Source: a virus. Taken from it: a DNA stretch of 25,066 bases. Position 1 is the first letter of the stretch; each line of letters starts with the position of its first letter. A program made the position numbers and the translations under genes. The stretch is from positions 1-25,066 of the IMG/VR virus record IMGVR_UViG_3300006108_000686. The stretch is one strand, 5' to 3'. The notes below the pieces were generated by a model. The model had not been told where the DNA came from and did not search any database. It saw only the letters and a program-made list of their open reading frames with translations. Below are positions 2,934-23,815 of the stretch, piece after piece.

Positions 2934-2961
2934 GCAGTATAATATATTATGGGAGTATGTG

Positions 2962-3894
2962 ATGGAACAATTATTATGGGTCGAAAAGTATCGACCACAA
3001 AAAGTGGAAGATTGTATCCTACCGGATGCAATCAAATCCACATTCTTGGAATATGTTACTAGAAAAGAAATACCGAATCTATTATTATCAGGTACGGCGG
3101 GTGTTGGAAAAACAACGATTGCTAAAGCCCTCTGTAATGAAGTTGGTTGTGACTATATTGTTATTAACGGCTCCGACGAATCTGGTATTGATGTTCTCCG
3201 CAATAAAATTAAAAACTATGCTTCATCGGTTTCCCTCGCTGGTGGCCGCAAAGTTGTTATCATTGACGAAGCAGACTATCTAAATCCCAATTCAACTCAA
3301 CCTGCGTTGCGTGGTGCCATCGAGGAGTTCTCCTCAAACTGTTCTTTCATCTTTACTTGTAACTATAAGAACCGCATCATTGATCCAATTCACTCTCGTT
3401 GTTCAGTTGTGGATTTTAAAATCAATGGTAGTAAGGCAAAGATGGCTGCAGCTTTCTTTAAACGTGTTGAATGGATACTTGAACAAGAGAATGTTCAGTA
3501 TGATAAAGAAGTTGTTGCTGCCGTTATCACCAAACACTTTCCTGATAATCGTAGGGTTCTCAATGAACTTCAACGGTATTCGGTATCTGGTGTAATCGAC
3601 AAAGGTATTCTATCAAATGTTGCCGATGTTCAAGTTGGTGAATTGATTTCTGCACTCAAAGAAAAAGATTTTGCATCTACACGCAAATGGGTTACTTCAA
3701 ACTTAGACAATGATCCGGTAAAGATTTATCGTAAACTTTACGATGGTCTTTATGATGTATTAAAACCTCAATCGGTCCCACAATTGGTACTGATTTTGGC
3801 TAAGTATCAATATCAGGCTGCCTTTGTGGCAGACCATGAGATTAATATGGTGGCTTGTTTGACCGAAATTATGGTAGATTGTGAGTTTAAATAA
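2962..3894 (+). CDS. 44: clamp loader large subunit gp44 (AAA+ ATPase)
   Basis: 310 residues against 319 in T4. The order is typical of clamp-loader ATPases: WVEKYRP near the start, Walker A GTAGVGKT (44-51), Walker B VVIIDEAD (98-105), sensor-1 FTCN and the SRC arginine-finger motif (145-147). Four copies act with gp62 to open and load the gp45 ring, driven by ATP. I chose the ATG at 2962, six bases after GGAG (2952-2955); an in-frame GTG at 2959 is possible. The stop overlaps the next ATG (TAATG). In T4, gene 62 follows directly; here two other genes intervene. Confidence 0.95.
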   Translation: MEQLLWVEKYRPQKVEDCILPDAIKSTFLEYVTRKEIPNLLLSGTAGVGKTTIAKALCNEVGCDYIVINGSDESGIDVLRNKIKNYASSVSLAGGRKVVIIDEADYLNPNSTQPALRGAIEEFSSNCSFIFTCNYKNRIIDPIHSRCSVVDFKINGSKAKMAAAFFKRVEWILEQENVQYDKEVVAAVITKHFPDNRRVLNELQRYSVSGVIDKGILSNVADVQVGELISALKEKDFASTRKWVTSNLDNDPVKIYRKLYDGLYDVLKPQSVPQLVLILAKYQYQAAFVADHEINMVACLTEIMVDCEFK

Positions 3895-4505: not shown

Positions 4506-4958
4506 ATGAATAAATTATTGCCTGGTATAAAATTAATTACACACGTTAGACACATTGATGAACGTGGTTACTTTACAGTATTGACTAACACAACTCATGA
4601 TGAAATGAGAGGAACTTTTCGTCAAATCAATATTGCCAAAAGTAGACACAATGTATTGCGTGGTATGCATAGACAGAATCAAACTAAATTGGTTATGCCA
4701 ATGGTCGGTGAAATCTTTGATGTCGCTTTGGATCCATTAACTGGAGATTGGTGTGGTTTTAAATTGGATTCCGAAACTGCATTATTAATTCCACCACAGT
4801 ATGCACATGGTTATTTGGTATTAAGTGATTGGGCAAATGTTCAATATGTCGTTGATTCACCATATAATCCACAAGAAGAAGAAAACTTCAAGTGGGATGC
4901 TTATGGTATCGATTGGCCAACCACTTCTGCACCATTATTATCAAATAAGGATAGATGA
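4506..4958 (+). CDS. dTDP-4-dehydrorhamnose 3,5-epimerase-like protein (RmlC family)
   Basis: 150 residues, somewhat shorter than the usual 180 or so. RmlC signatures occur in order: DERGYF (18-23), FRQINIAKS, VLRGMH with catalytic-type His55, KLVMPMVGEIFDVALD, IPPQYAHGYLVLS (95-107), Tyr120 in DSPYNP, and WDAYGIDWP with LLSNKD at the end. The family epimerises C3 and C5 of a dTDP-4-keto-6-deoxy sugar on the way to dTDP-rhamnose. The reduced length sits mostly at the N-terminus and between strands, while the active-site residues are kept. GGAG lies before the ATG. It lies inside the replication operon and was probably acquired from a host. Use on host surface sugars or a virion glycan is inference. 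Confidence 0.85.
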   Translation: MNKLLPGIKLITHVRHIDERGYFTVLTNTTHDEMRGTFRQINIAKSRHNVLRGMHRQNQTKLVMPMVGEIFDVALDPLTGDWCGFKLDSETALLIPPQYAHGYLVLSDWANVQYVVDSPYNPQEEENFKWDAYGIDWPTTSAPLLSNKDR

Positions 4959-5347
4959 TGCCAGATTTATTCAAAGAAATATTACCATCTATACTGGAGA
5001 AAAAGAAATCCGTCTTTCGTGACGAACTGGACTATAAAGATTATAAACCTTTTATAATCAACCGAGCCTTATCCTATCACATGGATTGCATATTGTATGT
5101 CAATGAATTGAATATAAACAACAGCTTAGATGTGGATATGCAATACCAATATCTTCTAAATACAATAAGACCAATGAAACGGAAATTCCAACCGTGGCAG
5201 AAATCAGAGGTCGATAAAGATATTGAGTGTGTAAAGCAATACTTCGGTTACTCAAATGAGAAAGCCAAAGAAGCTCTGCGTATTCTTACTGATGAACAAA
5301 TCGCTGAAATAAAAGCAAAAATAACAAAAGGCGGAGTGAACAAGTAA
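4958..5347 (+). CDS. 62: clamp loader small subunit gp62
   Basis: 129 residues. It matches the shorter gp62 of aquatic T4-like phages rather than the 187-residue T4 protein: DYKPFIINRALSYHMDCIL, then YQYLLNTIRPMKRKFQPW, then VKQYFGYSNEKAKEALRIL and a basic KITKGG tail. One copy joins four gp44 to form the loader. ATG codons occur at 4955 and 4958. The Shine-Dalgarno AAGGA (4947-4951) is better spaced for 4958, but 4955 is possible. It overlaps the epimerase stop and its own stop overlaps regA. Confidence 0.88.
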   Translation: MPDLFKEILPSILEKKKSVFRDELDYKDYKPFIINRALSYHMDCILYVNELNINNSLDVDMQYQYLLNTIRPMKRKFQPWQKSEVDKDIECVKQYFGYSNEKAKEALRILTDEQIAEIKAKITKGGVNK

Positions 5348-5754
5348 TGATTTCAATTATAGATTTAGTTGAAGTTACATTGAACGAAAAGGATGACTTT
5401 CTCAAGGTTCGGGAAACCCTTACCCGTATTGGTGTTGCTTCCAAAAAAGATAGAATACTTTACCAGTCTTGCCACATTCTGCATAAGCAAGGTAAGTATT
5501 ACATCGTGCATTTCAAAGAACTATTTGCATTAGATGGTAAACCAACTGACATTTCTGAAAATGATTTGTCCCGTAGAAACGCAATCGCAAAACTTTTGGC
5601 TGATTGGGGTCTTGTAACTATTGTCAATAAGGACAAGGCGGAGAATCCTCCTCCTATTTTCTTGTCGCAAATCAAGATTCTATCTCACAAAGAAAAGCAC
5701 GATTGGGAGTTGGTACCAAAATACAACATAGGTAAAAAACCCCAAGAATATTAA
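5347..5754 (+). CDS. regA: RegA translational repressor
   Basis: 135 residues, slightly longer than T4 RegA (122). The stretch DDFLKVRETLTRIGVASKKDRILYQSCHILHKQGKYYIVHFKE is close to T4 RegA throughout, as is RRNAIAKLLADWGL. RegA binds around the start codons of several early phage mRNAs, including replication genes, and blocks ribosomes. The start overlaps the gp62 stop (TAATG). The C-terminal extension (PPPIFLSQIKILSHKEKHDW) is also a known feature of RegA proteins. In T4, gene 43 follows soon after; here about 15 kb intervene. Confidence 0.95.
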   Translation: MISIIDLVEVTLNEKDDFLKVRETLTRIGVASKKDRILYQSCHILHKQGKYYIVHFKELFALDGKPTDISENDLSRRNAIAKLLADWGLVTIVNKDKAENPPPIFLSQIKILSHKEKHDWELVPKYNIGKKPQEY

Positions 5755-5769
5755 TTTGGTAATTATATT

Positions 5770-6318
5770 ATGGCATATGATGATATTAATGATGATAGAC
5801 ATAAGAAGATACACATCTTTGATGATGTGTTTTCTTTTGCTGAACGAACAAGATTCTACCAATACATAACCAACAGCCTCTACAAGGTTGGTGAGTATGA
5901 TGGAGTAATCTTAGAAAATCATAAATCATCTACATTGACCAGTAAGTATAATCAAAATGATATTGAATCAATGGGGTTTTATTTACCTGAAGAAGTTACC
6001 GATATTGTATATCTGAAAGCTTTCAAACCTGTGGCTGCATATGCCAATTTATGTAGACCAGATGATTCTTTTCATATTCATACTGACCATCATGGTCCAA
6101 TGTGGACACTACTGTATTATCCTAACTTAGACTGGCATATTGAATGGGGTGGTGATACTTATTTTCTAAAAGAAGATTTGACCATAGATTATGTTAGCCA
6201 ATACATTCCAGGAAGACTGGTAATATTTGATGGAACTATACCACATCTTATTAGACCAAGTACCAGACTGGCACCAGAAAACCGTTTCTCCTTTGTTATA
6301 AAATATATACCAGAATAA
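5770..6318 (+). CDS. 2-oxoglutarate/Fe(II)-dependent oxygenase
   Basis: 182 residues. The iron-binding facial triad is visible: H104-T-D106 in FHIHTDHHG and H159 in GTIPHLIRP. Arg172 in ENRFS would bind 2-oxoglutarate. The strands TLLYYPNLDW, EWGGDTYFL and PGRLVIFDG match the prolyl-hydroxylase-like double-stranded beta helix. Such enzymes are common in aquatic T4-like phages; their substrates are mostly unknown (protein residues, nucleobases or small molecules). No clear Shine-Dalgarno lies before the ATG, so expression may be weak or coupled. The gene sits just upstream of the hsp20 promoter. Confidence 0.85.
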   Translation: MAYDDINDDRHKKIHIFDDVFSFAERTRFYQYITNSLYKVGEYDGVILENHKSSTLTSKYNQNDIESMGFYLPEEVTDIVYLKAFKPVAAYANLCRPDDSFHIHTDHHGPMWTLLYYPNLDWHIEWGGDTYFLKEDLTIDYVSQYIPGRLVIFDGTIPHLIRPSTRLAPENRFSFVIKYIPE

Positions 6319-6321
6319 TTG

Positions 6322-6352
6322 TTGACACGGTGCAATAAATGTGTTATAAATA
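6322..6352 (+). promoter_or_regulatory. hsp20 promoter, sigma70-like, overlapping a late-type TATAAATA
   Basis: TTGACA at 6322-6327, a 17-base spacer and TATAAA at 6345-6350. The -10 is part of TATAAATA (6345-6352), the T4 late promoter sequence, so the gene may be read both early and late. The predicted start at about 6357 is the first base of a hairpin in the leader. Confidence 0.8.
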
Positions 6353-6356
6353 TGGT

Positions 6357-6420
6357 TGTAGTCGCCTAATGGGACTACATTTTATGAAACTCGCTTAACA
6401 CAAGGAGAACTAAGCATGAA
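6357..6420 (+). promoter_or_regulatory. ROSE-like RNA thermometer in the hsp20 leader (candidate)
   Basis: The 59-base leader can fold into two hairpins. Hairpin 1 pairs TGTAGTC (6357-6363) plus CC (6365-6366) with GG (6371-6372) plus GACTACA (6373-6379), with one bulged G and a TAAT loop. Hairpin 2 pairs CTC-g-CTT (6390-6396) with the Shine-Dalgarno AAGGAG (6402-6407), leaving G6393 bulged. Outside it, TTTATG (6381-6386) can pair with CATGAA (6415-6420), covering the start codon. UCGCU (6391-6395) fits the U-Y-G-C-U anti-Shine-Dalgarno motif of ROSE elements, which control small heat-shock genes in proteobacteria. The pairings were read by eye; energies were not calculated. Confidence 0.65.
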
Positions 6421-6868
6421 CACAACTATCAACGCATTATTTCCACAACTTAAAACCCTCAGCAAGTCTTTGGATCCTTTCACCATCGGTTTTGATGATG
6501 TATTGAGTCAGATTCAAGAACTCTCAGAAGGTGTTACCAAGGCAGTTCCTGGTTTCCCTCCATACAATATCAAACAAGTTAAAGATAACAAATACGTTAT
6601 CGAAATGGCAGTAGCAGGTTTTGCCAAGTCTGATATCGAAGTAACATTGGATGGTAACAAACTGGTTATCAAAGGTAATGCTTCAGAAGAAGAAGCTGAA
6701 GATAACTACATTTTCAAAGGTATTGCAACTCGTAACTTTACCCGTCAATTTACATTGGCTGATAAGGTAGAAATTAAAGATGCCGAAATTGTAAATGGTA
6801 TGTTAAAAGTTTGGTTGGAAAATCTCGTTAAGGCACAAGATGCCGTCAAAAAGATTGCCATCAAGTAA
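6416..6868 (+). CDS. hsp20: Hsp20 / alpha-crystallin small heat-shock protein
   Basis: 150 residues. A short N-terminal region (FDDVLSQI) is followed by the alpha-crystallin domain from about residue 48. That domain includes YNIKQVKDNKYVIEMAVAGFAKSDIEVTLDGNKLVIKG, a later GIATRNFTRQFTLADKVEI and NGMLKVWL. The IbpA-like core is complete; the final I-x-I-like motif is seen as KIAIK. Small heat-shock proteins hold unfolding proteins; hsp20 is frequent in T4-like cyanophages and relatives. AAGGAG (6402-6407) precedes the ATG but can be hidden in a leader hairpin. The gene has its own promoter and a terminator directly after it, so it is a one-gene unit. Confidence 0.95.
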   Translation: MNTTINALFPQLKTLSKSLDPFTIGFDDVLSQIQELSEGVTKAVPGFPPYNIKQVKDNKYVIEMAVAGFAKSDIEVTLDGNKLVIKGNASEEEAEDNYIFKGIATRNFTRQFTLADKVEIKDAEIVNGMLKVWLENLVKAQDAVKKIAIK

Positions 6869-9809: not shown

Positions 9810-11249
9810 ATGAAATTACCAGCATTTAAAGAATTTGACAAAACCAAATACGAAAAGTATGCAGAATTTGATGGAAAGATTCTCATCATCGGTTATGGTT
9901 CTGTCGGTCAAGCAATCCTTCCTGTCATTCTTAGACACCTTGTAGTAGAACCAAAAAACATTACTGTATTAGAAAGAGATAATCATCGTTCTCGTTTCTT
10001 GCAGTATCATGCTGGTTCTGGTGTAAACTATGTCCGTCAAGAAATCACTCCAACAAATTACAAAAAAGAATTAGCCAAATATGTTGGTGAAGGTGATTTG
10101 ATTATCAATGCATCATTAAACATTGAAGCTCAAGCTCTGTTAGAATGGTGTATGGAAAATGGAGTAATGGAGATTGATACATCTTTAGAAAGATGGGAAC
10201 ATGATCCTGATGAAACAATTCCTAAACTTTCAGATAGAACTTTGTTTCATACCCACAATGTTGTTCGTGAAGCAATGGCACCATATTTGCATGATGCACC
10301 TACTTGCTGTGTAACTCACGGTGCAAATCCTGGTTATGTAACTCATTTGACTAAACGTGCATTGTTGCAACTTGCAAAAAAACGTGGCAAAAAAGTTGAA
10401 ACACCAAAAACAAAAGAAGAATGGGCTCAGTTGATGAAGTCACTTGGTGTTAAAGTGATTCATATTGCTGAACGTGACCAACAAGTTATCGATGAACCAA
10501 AAACTAAGAATGAGTTTACTAACACTTGGTCTTGTGAAGGTTTTTGGGCAGAAGGTAGAGCACCAACAGAAATGGGTTGGGGAACACACGAAGATAAACA
10601 TCCAGAAGGTGGTAAGTCACAAGGTACTGCTGCTTACTTAATGCAACCTGGTTGTACCACATTGATGCGTTCATGGGTACCTGATGGTGGTCAATATAAT
10701 GGTTATTGTATTCAACATTCTGAATCTGTTACAATGAGTCAGTATTTTGAAACTAAAGATAAATCATTTAGACCATCCGTGTATTATGTTTATCAACCAA
10801 GTGATGCAGCTCTCGCTTCATTACATGAGATGCGTGGTAACGAATTAGATTTACAAAAAGACCAACGTATTCTGAAAGATGAAATTGTTTCAGGTATGGA
10901 TGAACTTGGTGTATTATTAATTGGTGATGATTTCTGTATGTGGCATGGTTCACAATTAGATATTCACGGTGCTCGTAAACTTGTTGAAGGTGAAAATGCC
11001 ACCTCATTACAAGTTGCAGGTTCTATGTTAGGTGCTATCGTTTGGATGATTAATCACCCAAGAGAGGGATACATCGAACCGGAAATGTTACCATTTGAAG
11101 AAATTTTAGAAATTGGTGATATGTATTGGGAACCTTTGGTAACAGTAATGTCTGATTGGACGCCATCACAGGATAAGAATTCATTATTCTATCGTGAATA
11201 TGATAAATCTAATCCATGCAAGTATGAAAATTTTAGGGTTTGGACTTGA
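9810..11249 (+). CDS. hss: homospermidine synthase
   Basis: 479 residues, the normal length for bacterial homospermidine synthase (about 477). An NAD-binding Rossmann motif G28-Y-G-S-V-G-Q lies near the N-terminus in IIGYGSVGQAILP. Family landmarks follow: DTSLERW, THGANPGYVTHL, GTAAYLMQPG, SWVPDGGQYNGYCIQHSESVTM, PSVYYVYQPSDAALASLHE and the late ATSLQVAGSMLGA. The enzyme joins two putrescines, or putrescine and spermidine, to sym-homospermidine with NAD as a bound cofactor. Only a weak ribosome site (GACGAG) is visible. The gene is complete, with no frameshift. In the phage it could supply polyamine for DNA packing or alter the host polyamine pool; that is inference. Confidence 0.93.
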   Translation: MKLPAFKEFDKTKYEKYAEFDGKILIIGYGSVGQAILPVILRHLVVEPKNITVLERDNHRSRFLQYHAGSGVNYVRQEITPTNYKKELAKYVGEGDLIINASLNIEAQALLEWCMENGVMEIDTSLERWEHDPDETIPKLSDRTLFHTHNVVREAMAPYLHDAPTCCVTHGANPGYVTHLTKRALLQLAKKRGKKVETPKTKEEWAQLMKSLGVKVIHIAERDQQVIDEPKTKNEFTNTWSCEGFWAEGRAPTEMGWGTHEDKHPEGGKSQGTAAYLMQPGCTTLMRSWVPDGGQYNGYCIQHSESVTMSQYFETKDKSFRPSVYYVYQPSDAALASLHEMRGNELDLQKDQRILKDEIVSGMDELGVLLIGDDFCMWHGSQLDIHGARKLVEGENATSLQVAGSMLGAIVWMINHPREGYIEPEMLPFEEILEIGDMYWEPLVTVMSDWTPSQDKNSLFYREYDKSNPCKYENFRVWT

Positions 11250-11382: not shown

Positions 11383-11457
11383 GCACCTATCGTCTATCGG
11401 TTAGGACACCGCCCTTTCACGGCGGGAAGAGGAGTTCGATTCTCCTTAGGTGTACCA
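11383..11457 (+). tRNA. tRNA-Glu (TTC), CCA encoded
   Basis: 75 bases. Acceptor GCACCTA pairs with TAGGTGT (first pair G-U). Anticodon stem CCGCC/GGCGG closes the loop CTTTCAC with anticodon TTC at 11416-11418. The T-arm has TTCGATT. Discriminator A and CCA are encoded. It is first in the array and directly downstream of a promoter. Confidence 0.95.
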
Positions 11458-11458
11458 T

Positions 11459-11542
11459 GGGGTAGAAGCATCAACGGTGATGCAGCGGACTGTAAATCCG
11501 CCGGCTCTGCCATGCCTAGTTCGATCCTAGGATACCCCACCA
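11459..11542 (+). tRNA. tRNA-Tyr (GTA), class II, CCA encoded
   Basis: 84 bases with a long variable arm, as expected for bacterial tRNA-Tyr. The anticodon stem GCGGA/TCCGC holds the loop CTGTAAA. T-loop TTCGATC. Acceptor GGGGTA pairs with TACCCC, discriminator A, CCA encoded. Only one base separates it from tRNA-Glu. Confidence 0.93.
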
Positions 11543-11557
11543 TTTTATAAAGAGTAT

Positions 11558-12121
11558 ATGAAAGCATTAGTTGTTGTTGCTCATCCTGATGATTGTGTTA
11601 TCTATGCGAGTGCATATATGGATGCTCATCCTGAATATGAGTGGCATATCGTATACTTGACACACCATTGGTGGAACAAACGAGCTCGTGAAGTTTCAAA
11701 ATATTGGCATAAACGTGGAGTGAAAACTAAGTTTTTAGGATTCAAAGACCATGGTAGAGATTTGGGTGCCAATGCTTTGAAAACTTGGCCAGCAGATTAT
11801 GCGATTAAAGCAATTCGTAAAGTTGCAATTAAGTATGATTTTATTTTGACACACGGTGAAGAAGGTGAATATGGACATCCACATCACCGAGTAATACATA
11901 AAGCAATTAAAGATTTTATTGTATCAAAGGTTTATTTTTCACTTGATAAATTGGATTTGGCATTACCAACAAATATTGCCATTAAAGAATTACCAAGACA
12001 CGCAGAGTCTATTTTGATTCATGCAAAAGATGGAGTTTCTTACTATAAGGAGTTTTTAAATGAAAAAGAAAAATACTCCGCAACCACGGAACTATCTAGT
12101 AAAACTGGCGTTGTTTCGTAA
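11558..12121 (+). CDS. PIG-L / LmbE-family deacetylase
   Basis: 187 residues. The zinc-binding motif of the family is at the N-terminus as VVAHPDDCVIYA (6-17), with H9, D11 and D12; the usual Glu after PDD is Cys here. The second motif, GEYGHPHHRVIH (103-114), gives the other histidine ligand. LmbE-type enzymes remove N-acetyl groups from GlcNAc-containing sugars or small molecules. GAG precedes the ATG. The gene lies within the tRNA array, and its 3' end overlaps a small basic protein gene in another frame. A role in changing a surface or nucleotide sugar is possible but unproven. Confidence 0.85.
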   Translation: MKALVVVAHPDDCVIYASAYMDAHPEYEWHIVYLTHHWWNKRAREVSKYWHKRGVKTKFLGFKDHGRDLGANALKTWPADYAIKAIRKVAIKYDFILTHGEEGEYGHPHHRVIHKAIKDFIVSKVYFSLDKLDLALPTNIAIKELPRHAESILIHAKDGVSYYKEFLNEKEKYSATTELSSKTGVVS

Positions 12122-12227
12122 AGCAGGAGTTCATCGTAAGAGTAATAAAGCTATGAGGCGTTTAGAGAAATCTAAAAAGAGTAGTTATAGTGAAGTGTAT
12201 TTTTCTTATGATTTGTTTTTGGTGTGA
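12060..12227 (+). CDS. small basic protein overlapping the PIG-L gene end
   Basis: 55 residues from ATG 12060. It overlaps the last 62 bases of the deacetylase gene in another frame and has a strong ribosome site, AAGGAG (12048-12053 region), seven bases upstream. It is very basic: PRNYLVKLALFRKAGVHRKSNKAMRRLEKSKKSS. Similar tiny Arg/Lys-rich proteins with an FRKAGxHRKSxKAxRR pattern are familiar in phages, and their function is unknown. RNA or DNA binding is likely from charge alone. The last codons contain one arm of a 17-bp inverted repeat. Confidence 0.65.
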   Translation: MKKKNTPQPRNYLVKLALFRKAGVHRKSNKAMRRLEKSKKSSYSEVYFSYDLFLV

Positions 12228-12307
12228 TTAACCAAACTATCTTATCAGACGGAGTGGTGTAAAATGAATTCCTCTAATCAAGGTTACCATAATACACTTC
12301 ACTATAA
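12185..12307. repeat. 17-bp perfect inverted repeat
   Basis: TTATAGTGAAGTGTATT (12185-12201) and its exact reverse complement AATACACTTCACTATAA (12291-12307) are separated by 89 bases. The left arm is in the last codons of the small basic gene; the right arm ends five bases before tRNA-Arg. The sequence between shows no tRNA and no convincing gene. Confidence 0.85.
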
Positions 12308-12312
12308 TTATT

Positions 12313-12387
12313 CTGGCCTTAGTATAATGGATAATACAGCTGCCTTCTAAGCAGTCAATATAGGTTCGATTCCTGTAGGCCGGACCA
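12313..12387 (+). tRNA. tRNA-Arg (TCT), CCA encoded
   Basis: 75 bases. Acceptor CTGGCCT/AGGCCGG with one wobble, D-arm stem GTAT/ATAC, anticodon stem GCTGC/GCAGT with loop CTTCTAA (anticodon TCT), T-loop TTCGATT, discriminator A, CCA. It reads AGA, a codon likely used more by the A/T-rich phage than by a higher-GC host. Confidence 0.93.
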
Positions 12388-12389
12388 AA

Positions 12390-12466
12390 GGGCCTTTAGC
12401 TCAGTTGGTCAGAGCAGTCGGCTCATAACCGTCAGGTCGTTGGATCATGCCCAACAAGGCCCACCA
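12390..12466 (+). tRNA. tRNA-Met (CAT), CCA encoded, unusual T-loop
   Basis: 77 bases. Acceptor GGGCCTT pairs with AAGGCCC. The anticodon loop is CTCATAA (CAT). T-stem GTTGG/CCAAC is intact, but the loop is ATCATGC: positions 54 and 58 are A and T instead of T and A. A fully paired 1-72 position argues for an elongator or Ile2-type rather than an initiator tRNA. Confidence 0.85.
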
Positions 12467-12471
12467 GTATT

Positions 12472-12546
12472 GCCCCGTTAGCACAGCGTTAGTGCAGCGG
12501 TTTTGTAAACCGAAGGTCGGAAGTTAGAATCTTTCACGGGGCACCA
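12472..12546 (+). tRNA. tRNA-Thr (TGT), CCA encoded
   Basis: 75 bases. Acceptor GCCCCGT pairs with ACGGGGC. The anticodon loop TTTGTAA gives TGT, with a stem GCGGT/ACCGA that has one end mismatch. The T-loop is TTAGAAT, with A instead of the nearly universal C56. Discriminator A, CCA. Confidence 0.85.
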
Positions 12547-12564
12547 AATATACCACACAATGTG

Positions 12565-12593
12565 TTGACATAGTGTATAAGTAATGTTATAGT
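12565..12593 (+). promoter_or_regulatory. sigma70-like promoter inside the tRNA array
   Basis: TTGACA at 12565-12570, 17 bases, TATAGT at 12588-12593. The expected start near 12600 is about three bases before the 5' end of the following tRNA-like element (12603). Confidence 0.8.
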
Positions 12594-12602
12594 ATTAAAT
12601 AT

Positions 12603-12672
12603 GCGGTCGGGGTATAGAACCAGATTAGGTGTCCAACTTAGTCACTTGGTGCAAATCCAAGCCACCGCTCCA
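12603..12672 (+). tRNA. degenerate tRNA-Gly-like element (apparent anticodon TCC)
   Basis: 70 bases. Acceptor GCGGTCG pairs with CCACCGC except for one C-C mismatch. Discriminator T and encoded CCA, as in bacterial tRNA-Gly. T-stem CTTGG/CCAAG is perfect, but its loop is TGCAAAT (T55 to G). The anticodon arm TTAGG/CTTAG has wobble pairs and the loop TGTCCAA, giving TCC but with G at position 33. The D-arm is reduced to about three pairs with no GG in the loop, and the variable loop has only three bases. It may be a decayed tRNA or a tRNA-like RNA with another job. Confidence 0.6.
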
Positions 12673-12674
12673 AT

Positions 12675-12748
12675 GCGGGATTAGTTTAATGGTAAAACTA
12701 GAGATTTCCAATCTTTCGTTGTCAGTTCGATTCTGTCATCCCGCTCCA
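12675..12748 (+). tRNA. tRNA-Gly (TCC), CCA encoded
   Basis: 74 bases. Acceptor GCGGGAT pairs with ATCCCGC, discriminator T, CCA. Anticodon loop TTTCCAA gives TCC with normal T33, T-loop TTCGATT, and a D-loop containing GG. It is a canonical tRNA-Gly two bases after the degenerate Gly-like element. Confidence 0.93.
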
Positions 12749-12753
12749 GTTAT

Positions 12754-12829
12754 TGCCTTGTAGCTCAGTTGGTAGAGTAGTTGACTGTTAATCAATTGGT
12801 CGCTGGTTCGAGCCCAGCCGAGGCAGCCA
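12754..12829 (+). tRNA. tRNA-Asn (GTT), CCA encoded
   Basis: 76 bases. Acceptor TGCCTTG pairs with CGAGGCA, anticodon stem GTTGA/TCAAT with loop CTGTTAA (GTT), T-loop TTCGAGC, discriminator G, CCA. Confidence 0.95.
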
Positions 12830-12876
12830 AACTATATAATGAAGCAGTATCGTGTAAAAACATAAAGGAGCAGTAA

Positions 12877-13656
12877 ATGAAAAAGTCACTCTTAGCACTA
12901 ATGATGGTTGCATCTGGTATTACATCAGTTCATGCAACAGAAGTTCTTGACGGCAATCTTACAGGTAATTTGACAATCACTAGCAACTACGAATTCCGTG
13001 GTATCAGTTTAAGTCAAAATGGTCCTGCGATTCAAGGTGGTATTGATTACAACCATAGTTCTGGTTTGTATATCGGTAACTGGAACTCCAGTTTCCGTAG
13101 TTTACCAAATTTAAACAATGATGACATCGATGCAAACAGCGGCGTTCAAATGAATGTGTATGCTGGTTGGAAAGGTGAATACAAAGGTGTTCGTGGTGAT
13201 GTAGGTTATATCACTTATAATTTCCCTCATGCAACTAATGCTGGTGAAACTAATGTGATTCAATATAACACAGGCGAAGCTTATGTTTCTTTGGGTTATG
13301 CACCAATTACTATTAAGTATAGCCAAACAATGACTAACTATTTTGGTACAAACAATAGTTCTGGTACACACTACACTCAGGCAGATTTCAAACAATCTTT
13401 GGAACCTTTGACACCTGATTTGAAAGCATTAAGTGTTGTTGCTCATTATGGTCGCACCTCTGTTGCTAATCATAGCAATTTAAGTTACAATGACATGAAC
13501 GTTGGTTTAGTTTACTCCTTCCCTGAGCAATGGGATTTAGGTGTTCGTTACTATACAAACAGTTCTATGACTAGTACCTTCCAAAATGCAAATACATTTG
13601 GTGGCACAAAGTTGTATGGTAATGTTGTTGCAGCAAGTTTAACAAAAACGTTTTAA
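12877..13656 (+). CDS. TorF-family (Gcw_chp) putative outer-membrane porin
   Basis: 259 residues. A Sec signal peptide is clear: MKKS, a hydrophobic stretch, and cleavage after VHA (residue 21). The mature protein starts with alternating beta-strand segments and the family hallmark TITSNYEFRGISLSQNGPAIQGGIDYNHSSGLYIGNW. Later strands include YAGWKGEYKGVRGDVGYITY and GLVYSFPEQWDLGVRYY. It ends in KTF; a C-terminal aromatic is the usual signal for outer-membrane barrel assembly. AAGGAG precedes the ATG. The gene lies between tRNA-Asn and the last tRNA, so it may be read from the tRNA promoters. Bacterial members are barrel proteins of poorly known substrate. Blocking of superinfection or altered uptake is a guess. 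Confidence 0.88.
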   Translation: MKKSLLALMMVASGITSVHATEVLDGNLTGNLTITSNYEFRGISLSQNGPAIQGGIDYNHSSGLYIGNWNSSFRSLPNLNNDDIDANSGVQMNVYAGWKGEYKGVRGDVGYITYNFPHATNAGETNVIQYNTGEAYVSLGYAPITIKYSQTMTNYFGTNNSSGTHYTQADFKQSLEPLTPDLKALSVVAHYGRTSVANHSNLSYNDMNVGLVYSFPEQWDLGVRYYTNSSMTSTFQNANTFGGTKLYGNVVAASLTKTF

Positions 13657-13666
13657 TTAAAGGTAT

Positions 13667-13741
13667 AGCGGAGTAGCTCAGAGGTAGAGCATTGGACTCA
13701 TAATCCAGGGGCCGTAGGTTCGATTCCTTCCTCCGCAACCA
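13667..13741 (+). tRNA. tRNA-Met (CAT), second CAT tRNA, CCA encoded
   Basis: 75 bases. D-arm GCTC/GAGC, anticodon stem TTGGA/TCCAG with loop CTCATAA, T-loop TTCGATT. Counting back from CCA, the acceptor is AGCGGAG against CTCCGCA, leaving A1 opposite A72 unpaired. An unpaired 1-72 end is a mark of initiator tRNA, but the three G-C pairs of the initiator anticodon stem are absent. It could be elongator Met, initiator-like, or Ile2 (CAT). Confidence 0.88.
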
Positions 13742-13745
13742 AAAT

Positions 13746-15365
13746 ATGCAAATTAAAAATGTGACTATTGTGGGTGGTGGGTCATCCGGCTGGATGACTG
13801 CCTCCGCACTAGTTAAAAATTGTCCACATCTCAATATCACTCTTGTTGAATCCCCAAATATTAAAACCATTGGCGTAGGAGAATCTACATTAGGCCATAT
13901 AAATCGTTTTCTTCATATGATTGGTTTAAAAGATGAAGATTGGATGCCGGCTTGTCATGCTACATACAAAAATTCAATTAGATTTACCAACTTTAGGGAG
14001 TTAGATGGTAAATCGTTTTATTATCCGTTCATTAACGGATTTGACTTTACAGATTCTTATAATGGATTCACGGCTTGGGGTGAATTAGCAACATTATATC
14101 CAGAAGAATTTCCTCCTGAAACATTCTCTCAATTTTTTGCTCCATCAAATACCTATCTCTGTGAAAATAATAAACAGACAGATAATAAAGATGGCACATT
14201 GAGAATGTTTAATTTTGAATTTGATACCGCATATCATATGGATGCTGGATTATTTGGTCAGTATTTAAAAGACCATGTTGCAATACCAAATGGTGTCAAT
14301 CATATTCTTAATGAAGTTTTTTATTGTGAAAAAGATGATGATGGTAATATAAAATCTTTGATATGCAAAGATGATTTAAAATTAGAAGCTGACTTATGGA
14401 TTGATTGCACCGGTTTCAGGTCACAATTATTGGAACAATGGATGGGTTCCAAATTTATTCCTTATTCTGATATTCTCGCCAATGACATGGCATGGGCAAC
14501 ACCAATAGAGTATAATGACCGTGAGAAAGAAATGGTCAATTATACCGATTGTCATGCACTAAAAAATGGTTGGGTATGGAACACTCCTCTATGGAGTAGA
14601 ATTGGCAAAGGCTATGTTTTTTCTAGTAAATTCATTTCCAAAGAAGATGCCAAAGAAGAATTTTTAGAACACATTGCAAAAGTTCATGGTCATCAACACG
14701 CAGTTAAAGCAAGAGATAATATGCGCTTTGTTCCCATTCGTCACGGTAAACACGAAAAAGGATGGGTAAAAAATGTTATTGGTATTGGATTAAGTTATGG
14801 TTTCGTTGAACCGTTAGAATCTACTGGACTATTAACGACACATGAAAACATAATTCGTTTAATTGATATATTAAACAGGCGAGGTGGTTATGTTACTCGT
14901 ATGGAAAAAGAATCTTATAATGTTGTAACTAATGATATCACAGATGGATTCTCAAAATTTATTTCGATGCACTATGCATATTCAAAAAGAACAGATAGTG
15001 AATATTGGAAATGGGCAACACAAGAAAATGATTATGAACCTGAAATGTTTAATACATTAAGGCAAAAAATAAATGATTATGAAAATGTGGCTGGGAAATT
15101 AAACAGTTATACTTACGATGCCACTCAACAAGGTGTATGTTTTATTCTTGCTGGTATGGGTGTTTTACCTGTTGCAACTAAATCGGCCATAGACTATTAT
15201 CACAAATTTAATTCGATAAATCCACAAGCAACAAATACTTCAAAAATGAAATACTTAATGCACAAACAATCTATAAATGAATTTATTAGTGGATTACCGA
15301 GTAACTATCAATTTATGAAAGATAGAATTTATGGTGGCAAAGATGATTATGCCACCAATAATTAA
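13746..15365 (+). CDS. flavin-dependent (tryptophan-type) halogenase
   Basis: 539 residues, the usual size. The FAD-binding motif G10-G-G-S-S-G15 is followed by WMTA. VGESTLGHINRFL precedes ATYKNSIRF, with Lys75 in the place of the catalytic lysine (K79 in PrnA). The family signature W-x-W-x-I-P is present as GWVWNTP (275-281), with T for I. EPLESTGLL (355-363) carries the conserved glutamates. Such enzymes use FADH2, oxygen and halide to halogenate aromatic compounds; relatives occur in aquatic phages, including a cyanophage enzyme with broad substrate use. The ATG lies four bases after the tRNA CCA end and has no ribosome site. The substrate here is unknown. Confidence 0.9.
   Translation: MQIKNVTIVGGGSSGWMTASALVKNCPHLNITLVESPNIKTIGVGESTLGHINRFLHMIGLKDEDWMPACHATYKNSIRFTNFRELDGKSFYYPFINGFDFTDSYNGFTAWGELATLYPEEFPPETFSQFFAPSNTYLCENNKQTDNKDGTLRMFNFEFDTAYHMDAGLFGQYLKDHVAIPNGVNHILNEVFYCEKDDDGNIKSLICKDDLKLEADLWIDCTGFRSQLLEQWMGSKFIPYSDILANDMAWATPIEYNDREKEMVNYTDCHALKNGWVWNTPLWSRIGKGYVFSSKFISKEDAKEEFLEHIAKVHGHQHAVKARDNMRFVPIRHGKHEKGWVKNVIGIGLSYGFVEPLESTGLLTTHENIIRLIDILNRRGGYVTRMEKESYNVVTNDITDGFSKFISMHYAYSKRTDSEYWKWATQENDYEPEMFNTLRQKINDYENVAGKLNSYTYDATQQGVCFILAGMGVLPVATKSAIDYYHKFNSINPQATNTSKMKYLMHKQSINEFISGLPSNYQFMKDRIYGGKDDYATNN
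15332..15357. terminator. 8-bp inverted repeat at a convergent gene end
   Basis: TGGTGGCA (15332-15339) pairs with TGCCACCA (15350-15357) around ten bases. It lies in the last codons of the halogenase, just before the tail-to-tail overlap with the minus-strand gene. No T run follows on either side, so a bidirectional terminator is possible but weak. Confidence 0.35.
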
Positions 15366-20943: not shown

Positions 20944-21255
20944 ATGGAAGTATTAGCCCTTAAATTAGTTACCGGAGAAGATTTACTAGGAGAACTCGAA
21001 TCACAATCCGAAACAGAATTCGTTATTGTAAATCCTGTTGGAATCGCAGTTGTTCGTGGTAAAGATGGTACACCACAGGTTGGATTTTCACCATTTCCCA
21101 TTCATGGAGAACAAAAATCTGGCACAACTATTGCCTTAGCTAAGAAGAATGTAGTATACTCCTATACACCAGCAGAAGATTTTATTACAAATTATAATTC
21201 CATCTTTGGTTCTGGTATTATTGTTCCTCCACAAAAACAACTTATTACGGGTTAA
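20944..21255 (+). CDS. small Sm-like beta protein of unknown function
   Basis: 103 residues. The pattern VLALKLVTGEDLLGELESQSETEFVIVNPVGIAVV, then VGFSPFPI and TIALAKKNVVYSYTP, resembles a small Sm-like beta barrel common upstream of replication genes in aquatic T4-like phages. The end FGSGIIVPP is also familiar there. AGGAG precedes the ATG. Its stop is one base before the likely TTG start of gene 43, so polymerase translation may depend on it. RNA binding is only suggested by fold. Confidence 0.75.
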   Translation: MEVLALKLVTGEDLLGELESQSETEFVIVNPVGIAVVRGKDGTPQVGFSPFPIHGEQKSGTTIALAKKNVVYSYTPAEDFITNYNSIFGSGIIVPPQKQLITG

Positions 21256-21256
21256 A

Positions 21257-23815
21257 TTGTCTAAATTCTACACAAATGTTCAATGCTTTGGTAATAACAT
21301 CTTTTATCGTGGTGTTATGGATGGCCAGAAGGTCAAACAAAAAATTGAATACTCACCATCACTTTTTCTACCATCACGAAAGAATCCGCAAGGAATCTAC
21401 AAGTCATTAACTGGTCTTCCCTTAGACCAGAAAATCTTTGGCACAATTCGTGAGGCTAGAGATTATGTGAAACAATTTGAAGGAAATTCTGGTGCTCCTA
21501 TTCCTGGTGCACCAGTCATCTATGGTCAAACTCGTTTCGAATATGCCTTTATCGCAGAACAACATAAAGGCATGGTTGATTATGATTTTGACCATATCTC
21601 TATTGCAGTAATCGATATTGAGGTTGGTTCAGAGAATGGATTTCCTGACCCATATTTGGCAAATGAACCTATCACAGCAATTTGTGTTAAGTTTCTAAAT
21701 CAATCACCTTTGGTTTTTGCCTGTGGTGAATATGAAGTGCAAGGCAATGAAGTGTATATTCGTTGTAAAGATGAATACTCACTTTGTAAACAATTCATGC
21801 ACTATTGGAAAGACAAATATCCTGATGTCGTTACTGGTTGGAACACCAAGTTTTTTGATATACCATATCTTGTCAATCGATTCAAAAAGATTCTTGGTGA
21901 AGATGAAGCCAAGAAATTATCTCCTTGGAACTATATTACAGAACGCAGAGCAAGAGTAAACAACCGTGAACTGATTGAATACAGTTTGGTTGGCATTTCA
22001 TCACTTGATTATATTGAACTATACAAATGGTATGCGCCAGGTGGTAAGTCACAAGAATCATATCGTTTGGATGCTATTGCTCAAGTTGAACTTGGTGAAG
22101 GTAAAATCTCGTATGATGAGTATGATAGTTTACATTCATTGTATCGATTGAACTTCCAAAAGTTTATTGAGTATAATATTAAAGACGTTGAATTGATTAT
22201 CAAGTTGGAAGATAAGTTAAAGTTACTTGAATTGGCTGTAACTTTGGCATACGACACCAAATCAAACTTTGATGATGTGTTTGCACAAACTCGTATGTGG
22301 GATGCTCTTACCAATTCTTATTTGTTGGAAAAGAAAATCATTGTGCCGCCTCGTATCATTAAAGAAAAAGATGGTATGTTTGAAGGTGCTTATGTGAAAG
22401 AAGTTCAAGTTGGCGCTCATGCATGGGTTGCTTCGTTTGATTTGAACTCTTTGTATCCACATCTGATGATGCAATATAATATCAGTCCCGAAACACTCAT
22501 TGAACCTGAAAACTACTCTGAAGAAATGCGTAACATTCTTTCTCAAGGTGTTTCTGTTGAGAAGATGTTGAAGAAAGAAATCAATACTGATGGATTGGTA
22601 ACTGCAACTCTAACTCCTAACGGACAATTCTTTCGTACCGATATTCAAGGCTTCTTACCTGGAATGATGGAAGAAATGTATAATGATAGAAGTCGTTTTA
22701 AGAAGATGATGCTTCAAGCAAAACAGGAATATGAAAATGAGAAAGACCCAAGTAAACTCTACGAAATTGAAAAACGTATTGCCAAATACAACAACATTCA
22801 ATTGGCGAAAAAAGTATCACTTAATTCTGCCTATGGTGCTCTCGGTTCTCAGTATTTCCGTTTTTATGACCTTCGTATGGCGTTGGGTGTTACGACTGCT
22901 GGACAGTTAAGTATTCGTTGGATTGAAGCCAAGATTAATGCGTGGATGAATAAACTTTTGGAGACCAAAGATGTTGATTATGTTATTGCTTCTGATACTG
23001 ATTCAATTTACCTACGAATGGGAGAGTTGGTTAATAAATTTATTAAGGACACTTCCAATAAACAAAAAGTAATTTCTCTCATGGATAAAATCTGTGAAGA
23101 TAAACTTCAACCATACATCGATAAATCTTATGGTGAGTTGGCAGAGTATGTCAAAGCACCTAAACAAAAGATGCAGATGAAACGTGAAGGCCTATCTGAC
23201 AAGGGTATCTGGACTGCCAAGAAACGTTATATTCTTAATGTGTATAACAATGAAGGCGTTCAATACAATGAACCACAGATGAAGGTGATGGGATTAGAAA
23301 TGATTAAGTCATCCACACCTGCGGTGATTCGTGAGAAGATGAAAGAAGCCATTACGATTATGATGAATGGTACTGAAGAAGATATTCATGAATTTATTAA
23401 GAATGCCAAAAAAGATTTCATGGGTTTACCACCAGAAGATATCTCCTCACCCCGTGGTTGTAACGGACTATCTAAATACTCCGATTCATTATCGATGTAT
23501 AAATCTGGCACACCAATGCACGTCAAAGGTGCCATTTTATACAACCACTATCTTAAAGAGAAAAAACTTACTAAAAAGTATCCACTCATTCAAGAAGGCG
23601 AGAAACTGAAATATAGTTATCTCAAAATGCCTAACCCATTCAAAGATACCGTCATTTCATTTCCAGGTCGTTTACCCGTAGAATTTGGACTTAATGAATA
23701 TATTGATTATGATGTCCAGTTTGAAAAGGCTTTCTTAGAACCAATTAAAGTAATTTTGGATTGTATGAAGTGGACAACAGAGAAAACTAGCACATTAGAG
23801 GACTTTTTCGGATGA
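21257..23815 (+). CDS. 43: DNA polymerase gp43 (family B)
   Basis: 852 residues from TTG 21257, against 898 in T4. The 3'-5' exonuclease shows D120-I-E122, GWNTKFFD (194-201) and Y306-x3-D310. Polymerase motifs are DLNSLYPH (395-402), KKVSLNSAYG (518-527) and the catalytic SDTDS (579-583); KKRY follows later. The C-terminal LEDFFG fits the clamp-binding peptide that docks on gp45. I chose TTG because SKFYTNVQCFGNN aligns with the T4 N-terminus. The upstream in-frame ATG at 21206 lies inside the previous gene, and no ATG lies between. The ribosome site is poor, so coupling to the Sm-like gene is likely. Confidence 0.95.
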   Translation: MSKFYTNVQCFGNNIFYRGVMDGQKVKQKIEYSPSLFLPSRKNPQGIYKSLTGLPLDQKIFGTIREARDYVKQFEGNSGAPIPGAPVIYGQTRFEYAFIAEQHKGMVDYDFDHISIAVIDIEVGSENGFPDPYLANEPITAICVKFLNQSPLVFACGEYEVQGNEVYIRCKDEYSLCKQFMHYWKDKYPDVVTGWNTKFFDIPYLVNRFKKILGEDEAKKLSPWNYITERRARVNNRELIEYSLVGISSLDYIELYKWYAPGGKSQESYRLDAIAQVELGEGKISYDEYDSLHSLYRLNFQKFIEYNIKDVELIIKLEDKLKLLELAVTLAYDTKSNFDDVFAQTRMWDALTNSYLLEKKIIVPPRIIKEKDGMFEGAYVKEVQVGAHAWVASFDLNSLYPHLMMQYNISPETLIEPENYSEEMRNILSQGVSVEKMLKKEINTDGLVTATLTPNGQFFRTDIQGFLPGMMEEMYNDRSRFKKMMLQAKQEYENEKDPSKLYEIEKRIAKYNNIQLAKKVSLNSAYGALGSQYFRFYDLRMALGVTTAGQLSIRWIEAKINAWMNKLLETKDVDYVIASDTDSIYLRMGELVNKFIKDTSNKQKVISLMDKICEDKLQPYIDKSYGELAEYVKAPKQKMQMKREGLSDKGIWTAKKRYILNVYNNEGVQYNEPQMKVMGLEMIKSSTPAVIREKMKEAITIMMNGTEEDIHEFIKNAKKDFMGLPPEDISSPRGCNGLSKYSDSLSMYKSGTPMHVKGAILYNHYLKEKKLTKKYPLIQEGEKLKYSYLKMPNPFKDTVISFPGRLPVEFGLNEYIDYDVQFEKAFLEPIKVILDCMKWTTEKTSTLEDFFG

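Follow-up and report, generated by a model that had tools for sequence, protein, structure and literature searches.

RNA thermometers of the ROSE-like class, whose criteria are taken here as described in PMC3669281 and PMC11182007, lie in the leaders of small heat-shock genes and consist of two to four hairpins, with the stable hairpin(s) upstream of a 3' hairpin in which the motif U(U/C)GCU is imperfectly paired with the Shine-Dalgarno (SD) sequence, leaving one G bulged. In this class, warming melts the SD hairpin but leaves hairpin 1 intact, and translation increases. In the 61–62-nt, two-hairpin layout of Pseudomonas ibpA, hairpin 2 melts with heat, thereby freeing the SD (PMC3669281); hairpin 2 alone suffices for this, and hairpin 1 stays closed (Krajewski et al. 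2013, PMC3669281). The thermometer of cyanobacterial hsp17 is also on a small heat-shock gene, and in the group of bacteria that cyanophages infect, but it consists of a single hairpin with a 1x3 bulge and with the AUG in its stem (PMC4477652), whereas the cyanophage leaders considered below are of the proteobacterial ROSE type. In E. coli, IbpA represses its own translation via the 5' UTR, which requires Arg93, an aromatic residue at position 34 and basic residues at positions 97 and 98 (PMC10474464). Among phages, three thermometers were counted in 2024, viz. those of lambda cIII, SPbeta blyA and a sigma-70 gene of gut Caudoviricetes (PMC11182007). They resemble the present case in the control of a phage or prophage gene by temperature via the mRNA leader, which here would follow by homology; however, they are isolated cases, none of them is on a heat-shock gene, and those of blyA and sigma-70 are of the fourU type. 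In the literature that we searched, outside which most subscription papers and preprints lie, we found no description of a phage hsp20 gene with a thermometer or a ROSE element, and a phylogeny paper on the cyanophage sHsp mentions neither leaders nor thermometers. The class of the element described here is known; a widespread phage family of it appears to be new.

The hsp20 leader and its relation to known thermometers

The window (the whole stretch of 25,066 nucleotides that was analysed) is a 25-kb virus record with T4-like replication genes, in which the clamp gp45 (1797–2468), the clamp loader gp44 (2959–3894), gp62 (4955–5347) and the DNA polymerase gp43 (21206–23815) are encoded. The gene behind the leader was correctly taken for hsp20 in the earlier note: the open reading frame (ORF) at 6416–6868 (+ strand) encodes an IbpA-class small heat-shock protein of 150 aa that matches PHROG_432 (E 3e-40) and Pfam HSP20, and its score of 118.5 bits with the NCBIfam IbpA model is under the equivalog cut-off of 212. 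Its upstream neighbour is a RegA-type translation repressor (5347–5754, + strand; phrog_242, E 2e-59; S-PM2 synteny), and the gene order gp62, RegA, Hsp20, gp43 is common to the window and cyanophage S-PM2. The protein encoded at 5770–6318 matches an endonuclease V PHROG and also, just below the cut-off, a 2OG-Fe(II) oxygenase model. A nucleotide search of the window region against GenBank phages gave no match, and the window is therefore linked to cultured phages through protein and RNA models. The window, a fragment of a T4-like phage, additionally carries eight tRNA genes (11383–13738) and genes for a saccharopine dehydrogenase-like protein (9810–11249), a Gcw_chp protein (12877–13656) and a tryptophan halogenase (13746–15365).

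The predicted hsp20 promoter (6322–6352, + strand) is comprised of TTGACA (6322–6327), a 17-nt spacer and TATAAATA (6345–6352), within which TATAAA (6345–6350) is the −10 hexamer; TATAAATA is sigma-70-like, and it can also be read as a T4-type late promoter. As this promoter ends at 6352 and hairpin 1 begins at 6357, hairpin 1 would form the 5' end of the mRNA, which is consistent with the leader start near 6357 that had been proposed. A consensus promoter scan that required TATAAT-like ends left the hsp20 promoter off its list. Of 120 leaders, 106 have a −10-like hexamer in the 35 nt that precede the hairpin-1 bulge, versus 20% of shuffles, and the commonest distance is 12 nt. In a subgroup of the window family (L008:2923-3003 and similar leaders), a palindrome, ACTAGTATAAATACTAGT, is situated in the hsp20 promoter between −35 and −10, where it may serve as an operator or as a second, late promoter. 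In six relatives (L043, L057, L068, L069, L070 and L080) the promoter region, upstream of the ROSE-like element, is swapped for another conserved, structured-looking stretch (GCTGGATACCGTAACCAGT).

Covariance-model matches delimit the whole ROSE-like element, start codon included, at 6357–6421 (+ strand). Hairpin 1 (6357–6379, + strand), which is indicated by folding, by the bulged-G hairpin in relatives and by covariation, has a 5' arm of UGUAGUC (6357–6363), a bulged G6364 and CC (6365–6366), a loop UAAU (6367–6370) and a 3' arm of GG (6371–6372) and GACUACA (6373–6379). In hairpin 2, CUC-[G]-CUU-AACAC-AAG-GAG, the anti-SD CUCGCUU (6390–6396, + strand), which includes the ROSE motif UCGCU (6391–6395), pairs with the SD AAGGAG (6402–6407, + strand) and leaves G6393 bulged. 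The U-Y-G-C-U motif, the masking of the SD by CTC-g-CTT with one bulged G and the two hairpins are thus as they had been read from the letters, and both hairpins were reproduced in a 69-nt fold of 6357–6425 (−15.8 kcal/mol, z −3.0; 2 of 200 shuffles were as good). An outer stem (6381–6386 with 6415–6420, + strand), which had been thought to cover the AUG, is predicted in the minimum-energy fold of the window's 69 nt, but it is absent from the relatives. Since stems of at least five pairs that touch the AUG are no more frequent in the relatives than in shuffled leaders (5% of 121 leaders versus 8%), a conserved outer stem was rejected. Extending the sequence by 30 nt into the coding region alters the minimum-energy fold, in which the SD now pairs with coding sequence; hence, single-sequence folding is weak evidence, and the comparison of relatives was relied upon.

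With respect to the class described above, the window leader precedes a small heat-shock gene, its stable hairpin 1 lies upstream of the SD hairpin, and this 3' hairpin carries U(U/C)GCU imperfectly paired with the SD, with one G bulged. A fourU thermometer was rejected, as the pairing strand, CUCGCUU, has no run of four U against the SD. No Rfam family matched the window leader at the gathering threshold. The Rfam search suggested in the earlier note was borne out in part, in that ROSE_3 (RF02523) aligns with the whole leader (6356–6421), but at 20.6 of the 43 bits needed; on the relatives of the window its scores (25–31 bits) are also below this cut-off, and ROSE (RF00435) and ROSE_2 (RF01832) gave no match up to E 10 in 6330–6440. 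Because of the score under the cut-off, the leader is called ROSE-like and is not filed as ROSE_3. In genomes with ROSE_3 matches, hairpin 1 is GGGAUG-CCGAAGUCGGGUCCC, followed by ACUUGCUGA...UCAGGAG before Hsp20. ROSE_3, which is found on Hsp20 genes of Pseudomonadota, shares with the phage leaders the same bulged G in hairpin 1 (GAUG-CC ... GGGUC) and CUC/CUU-G-CU against the SD, whereas the phage hairpin 2 is shorter, without the extra upper pairs. The Pseudomonas ibpA leader is likewise similar in its small heat-shock gene, a 5' UTR of about 60 nt and a stable hairpin 1 (PMC3669281), as well as in U(U/C)GCU facing the SD in a short hairpin 2 and an AUG outside the conserved structure; the phage leaders differ from it in their phage-type promoters, their hairpin-1 sequence and their near-constant CUCGCUU anti-SD. 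Although the ROSE_3 cut-off was missed, the architecture and the UYGCU motif with its bulged G agree with a ROSE-type assignment, and a model built from phage leaders also retrieves the leaders of bacterial hsp20/ibpB genes (see below). These comparisons strongly support the core claim that a ROSE-type element is present on this phage hsp20 mRNA.

Conservation and covariation among phage leaders

Proteins with 70–96% identity to the window's Hsp20 are encoded on 80 viral contigs. In the leaders of this window family, CUCGCUU and AAGGAG are almost unchanged, and hairpin 1 has been rewritten in many ways with its pairing kept. For loci chosen by protein alone, the hairpin-2 core was present before 155 of 158 phage hsp20 genes (window family, 80 of 80; cyanophage type, 75 of 78), in contrast to 16 of 971 other ORFs of the same loci and 3.6% of shuffled leaders. 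The three cyanophage-type leaders without the full core retain CUCGCU and GGAG, their pairing being altered. The anti-SD is CUCGCUU in 151 of the 155 core-bearing leaders and CUUGCUU or UUCGCUU in the other four, variants in which a C-G pair becomes U-G; the loop of hairpin 2 varies freely while the position of the bulged G stays fixed. A gene-blind DNA pattern (CTCGCTT-N2-12-AAGGAG-N3-9-ATG), run on viral contigs, was found on at least 120 of them, and among the matches listed Hsp20 was the next ORF in 92 of 120. Many of these Hsp20s are only about 30–40% identical to the query proteins, and several of the matches before other genes look like chance.

RNAalifold returned no structure for a MAFFT alignment of the leaders (A1), owing to the misalignment of hairpin 1 and of some SDs, and A1 was replaced by a bulge-anchored parse and by covariance models. 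The bulge-anchored parse recovered the bulged-G hairpin 1 in 174 of 195 leaders, and 96.5% of the cells in the covariance-model alignment are paired. For hairpin 1, 165 cells changed on both sides versus 45 ± 6 in shuffles, with a covariation score of 0.426 versus 0.03–0.10 for slid partners. Fitting to the structure biases this alignment in its favour, and the shuffles do not keep relatedness; an unfitted 12-sequence seed alignment likewise exceeds its controls. Hairpin 2 displays almost no covariation because its arms are nearly invariant. The comparison of related hsp20 leaders that the earlier note had called for thus found the pairing kept, with strong covariation in hairpin 1, and the leader at 6357–6415 is a real, conserved RNA structure.

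Distribution among phages and bacteria

A covariance model (R1) built from 12 cyanophage-type leaders, with the window outside the training set, gave 73 matches overall in 659 kb, including the window leader at 26.1 bits (E 0.0012). With the refined model (R2), whose training set includes the window, the leader scores 57.6 bits and the next best match in the window 11.2. The refined model, whose training sources included L205–L214 and excluded L307–L316, detected all 78 cyanophage-type loci with enough upstream sequence, together with one off-target match (E 0.065). When it was applied to 20 phage records, it placed the site at the hsp20 leader of 19 and gave one further, weak match; for the twentieth, HTVC103P, the element was found in a shorter locus. 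The element precedes hsp20 in Synechococcus and Prochlorococcus myoviruses, in the Pelagibacter phages HTVC008M, Mosig, HTVC103P and HTVC115P, in phage C48C1 and in the Agrobacterium jumbo phage Atu_ph07, and a weaker form of it (22 bits) is present in Pseudomonas phage Callisto. It is near-exclusively linked to hsp20 in a broad set of aquatic phages. A Devosia locus (L204) with a weak partial protein match, from which the element is absent, was set aside.

These searches also touch upon gene annotation. The hsp20 of P-HM2 (ADO99925.1) has its annotated start upstream of the RNA element (L209:1399-1476; P-HM2 133301-133378), so that the leader is annotated as coding, and translation probably begins immediately behind the element. 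For the hsp20 of S-CAM7 (AOV62361.1), the element predicts a start about 29 codons upstream of the annotated one (L308:525-664). A full element (36.7 bits) lies before an AhpC/TSA peroxiredoxin gene, not hsp20, on one viral contig (L095:1907-2525, − strand). On other viral contigs the element (32–48 bits) precedes ORFs of 63–75 aa without a Pfam family (L108:1385-1655, L177:741-1019, L156:1466-1713 and L091:6068-6352), and the short ORFs of L108 and L177 have similar N-termini.

In 299 Pseudomonadota genomes the phage model gave five matches, four of them before Hsp20 genes, of which two are enterobacterial ibpB. In the order of the streamlined alphaproteobacterium SAG AG-404-M02, a match was found in 24 of 32 genomes, and 18 of the 19 loci examined are the genomes' own hsp20 leaders. 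These leaders resemble those of the phages in having two hairpins, a bulged-G hairpin 1 and UYGCUU against AAGGAG; they differ in that they mostly have CUUGCUU, not CUCGCUU, and in that the genes are chromosomal; the element is also present on one rpoH gene. In a class-wide sample, 13 of 289 genomes had a match, and most of those read are hsp20 leaders. One class-wide match is the leader of the sigma-32 (rpoH) gene of an alphaproteobacterial genome (L360:1480-2426, with AAUCUUGCUUAAUAAGGAG before the start); as the phage model matches this leader, the master heat-shock regulator of that bacterium may be under the same switch. Phage and bacterial Hsp20s interleave in a quickly built protein tree, which fits a repeated exchange of hsp20 between phages and bacteria.

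Proposed mode of control and alternative explanations

With a probability of about 0.78, we consider the hsp20 leader to be a short, two-hairpin, ROSE-like cis-regulatory RNA in which the SD is held closed and is opened most likely by warming. Hairpin 1 would fold stably where the mRNA is predicted to begin, and hairpin 2 would be a weak helix in which CUC-G-CUU holds the SD AAGGAG, one G being bulged. While hairpin 2 is closed ribosomes could not load, and translation would be repressed by sequestration of the SD; once it opens, most likely on warming, the chaperone could be made at once from pre-existing mRNA. Homology to the Pseudomonas ibpA layout implies that the phage leader should repress when cool and open on warming, and an opening of hairpin 2 by temperature may tune the supply of the chaperone to the temperature of infection. 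Hairpin 2 is indeed weak (about −3.1 kcal/mol at 25 C in the window), close to the enterobacterial ibpB core computed likewise (−3.0 kcal/mol). Nearest-neighbour folding predicts a small rise in mean SD accessibility, from 0.25 at 10 C to 0.36 at 50 C. A sharp temperature switch is not predicted by folding software for the phage leaders, and bacterial ROSE-family leaders equally show none in such programs. Temperature folding of single sequences, by which the window leader, other genes and bacterial ROSE-family leaders were not told apart, was therefore rejected as a discriminator. In the proposed folding check, an SD-covering hairpin was present in the 69-nt fold, and no sharp opening was predicted.

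That the SD is mostly paired from 10 to 50 C by software could also mean that the leader is a constant translational brake, or a protector of the 5' end of the mRNA, without regulated opening; the location of hairpin 1 at the predicted 5' end agrees with this, and strongly expressed phage genes may need damping. However, a near-fixed weak helix with a fixed bulged G and a variable loop suits a tuned switch better, the element accompanies a heat-shock gene almost exclusively and its counterparts in bacteria are thermometers, and we regard a constant brake as quite unlikely. An explanation of hairpin 1 as an intrinsic terminator of the gene upstream, and of hairpin 2 as chance complementarity to the SD, is extremely improbable. 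A short U run does follow hairpin 1 in the window family, but hairpin 1 is just downstream of the predicted promoter, and the anti-SD hardly varies and is lacking in other leaders; moreover, no terminator-like site was scored and a U run behind hairpin 1 is missing from the cyanophage-type leaders, and by these two results this explanation is contradicted for the family and was rejected.

Another possibility, compatible with a thermometer, is that Hsp20 binds and closes its own leader and is titrated off by unfolded proteins, which would make the leader a sensor of folding load for which temperature is one trigger among several. The phage Hsp20s are nearest to the IbpA/IbpB families, and Arg93 is present in 208 of 211 of them, Tyr or Phe at position 34 in 209 of 211 and Arg or Lys at position 97 in 200 of 211. 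Nevertheless, position 98, which is basic in E. coli, is mostly Ala, Ser, Thr, Val or Gln in the phages, and the conservation of Arg93 may be structural; this explanation appears unlikely to us. A wider proposal, which we put forward tentatively and consider doubtful, is that of a self-contained proteostasis circuit of aquatic phages, in which an IbpA-class Hsp20 is combined with a leader that senses both temperature and free Hsp20, the pair having been repeatedly exchanged with streamlined marine alphaproteobacteria. If such a circuit exists, the supply of the chaperone would be matched both to the ambient temperature and to the burden of protein folding in the infected cell.

For the thermometer that we favour, the presence of one ROSE-like element on hsp20 across cyanophages, pelagiphages, freshwater T4-like phages and an Agrobacterium jumbo phage suggests that translation may regularly be under temperature control during phage infection in lakes and the sea. 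A covariance model is now available for a family that Rfam misses. The phage hsp20 gene, which is widespread and poorly understood, gains a testable mode of control, and the effect of warming on infection becomes directly testable with cultured cyanophages.
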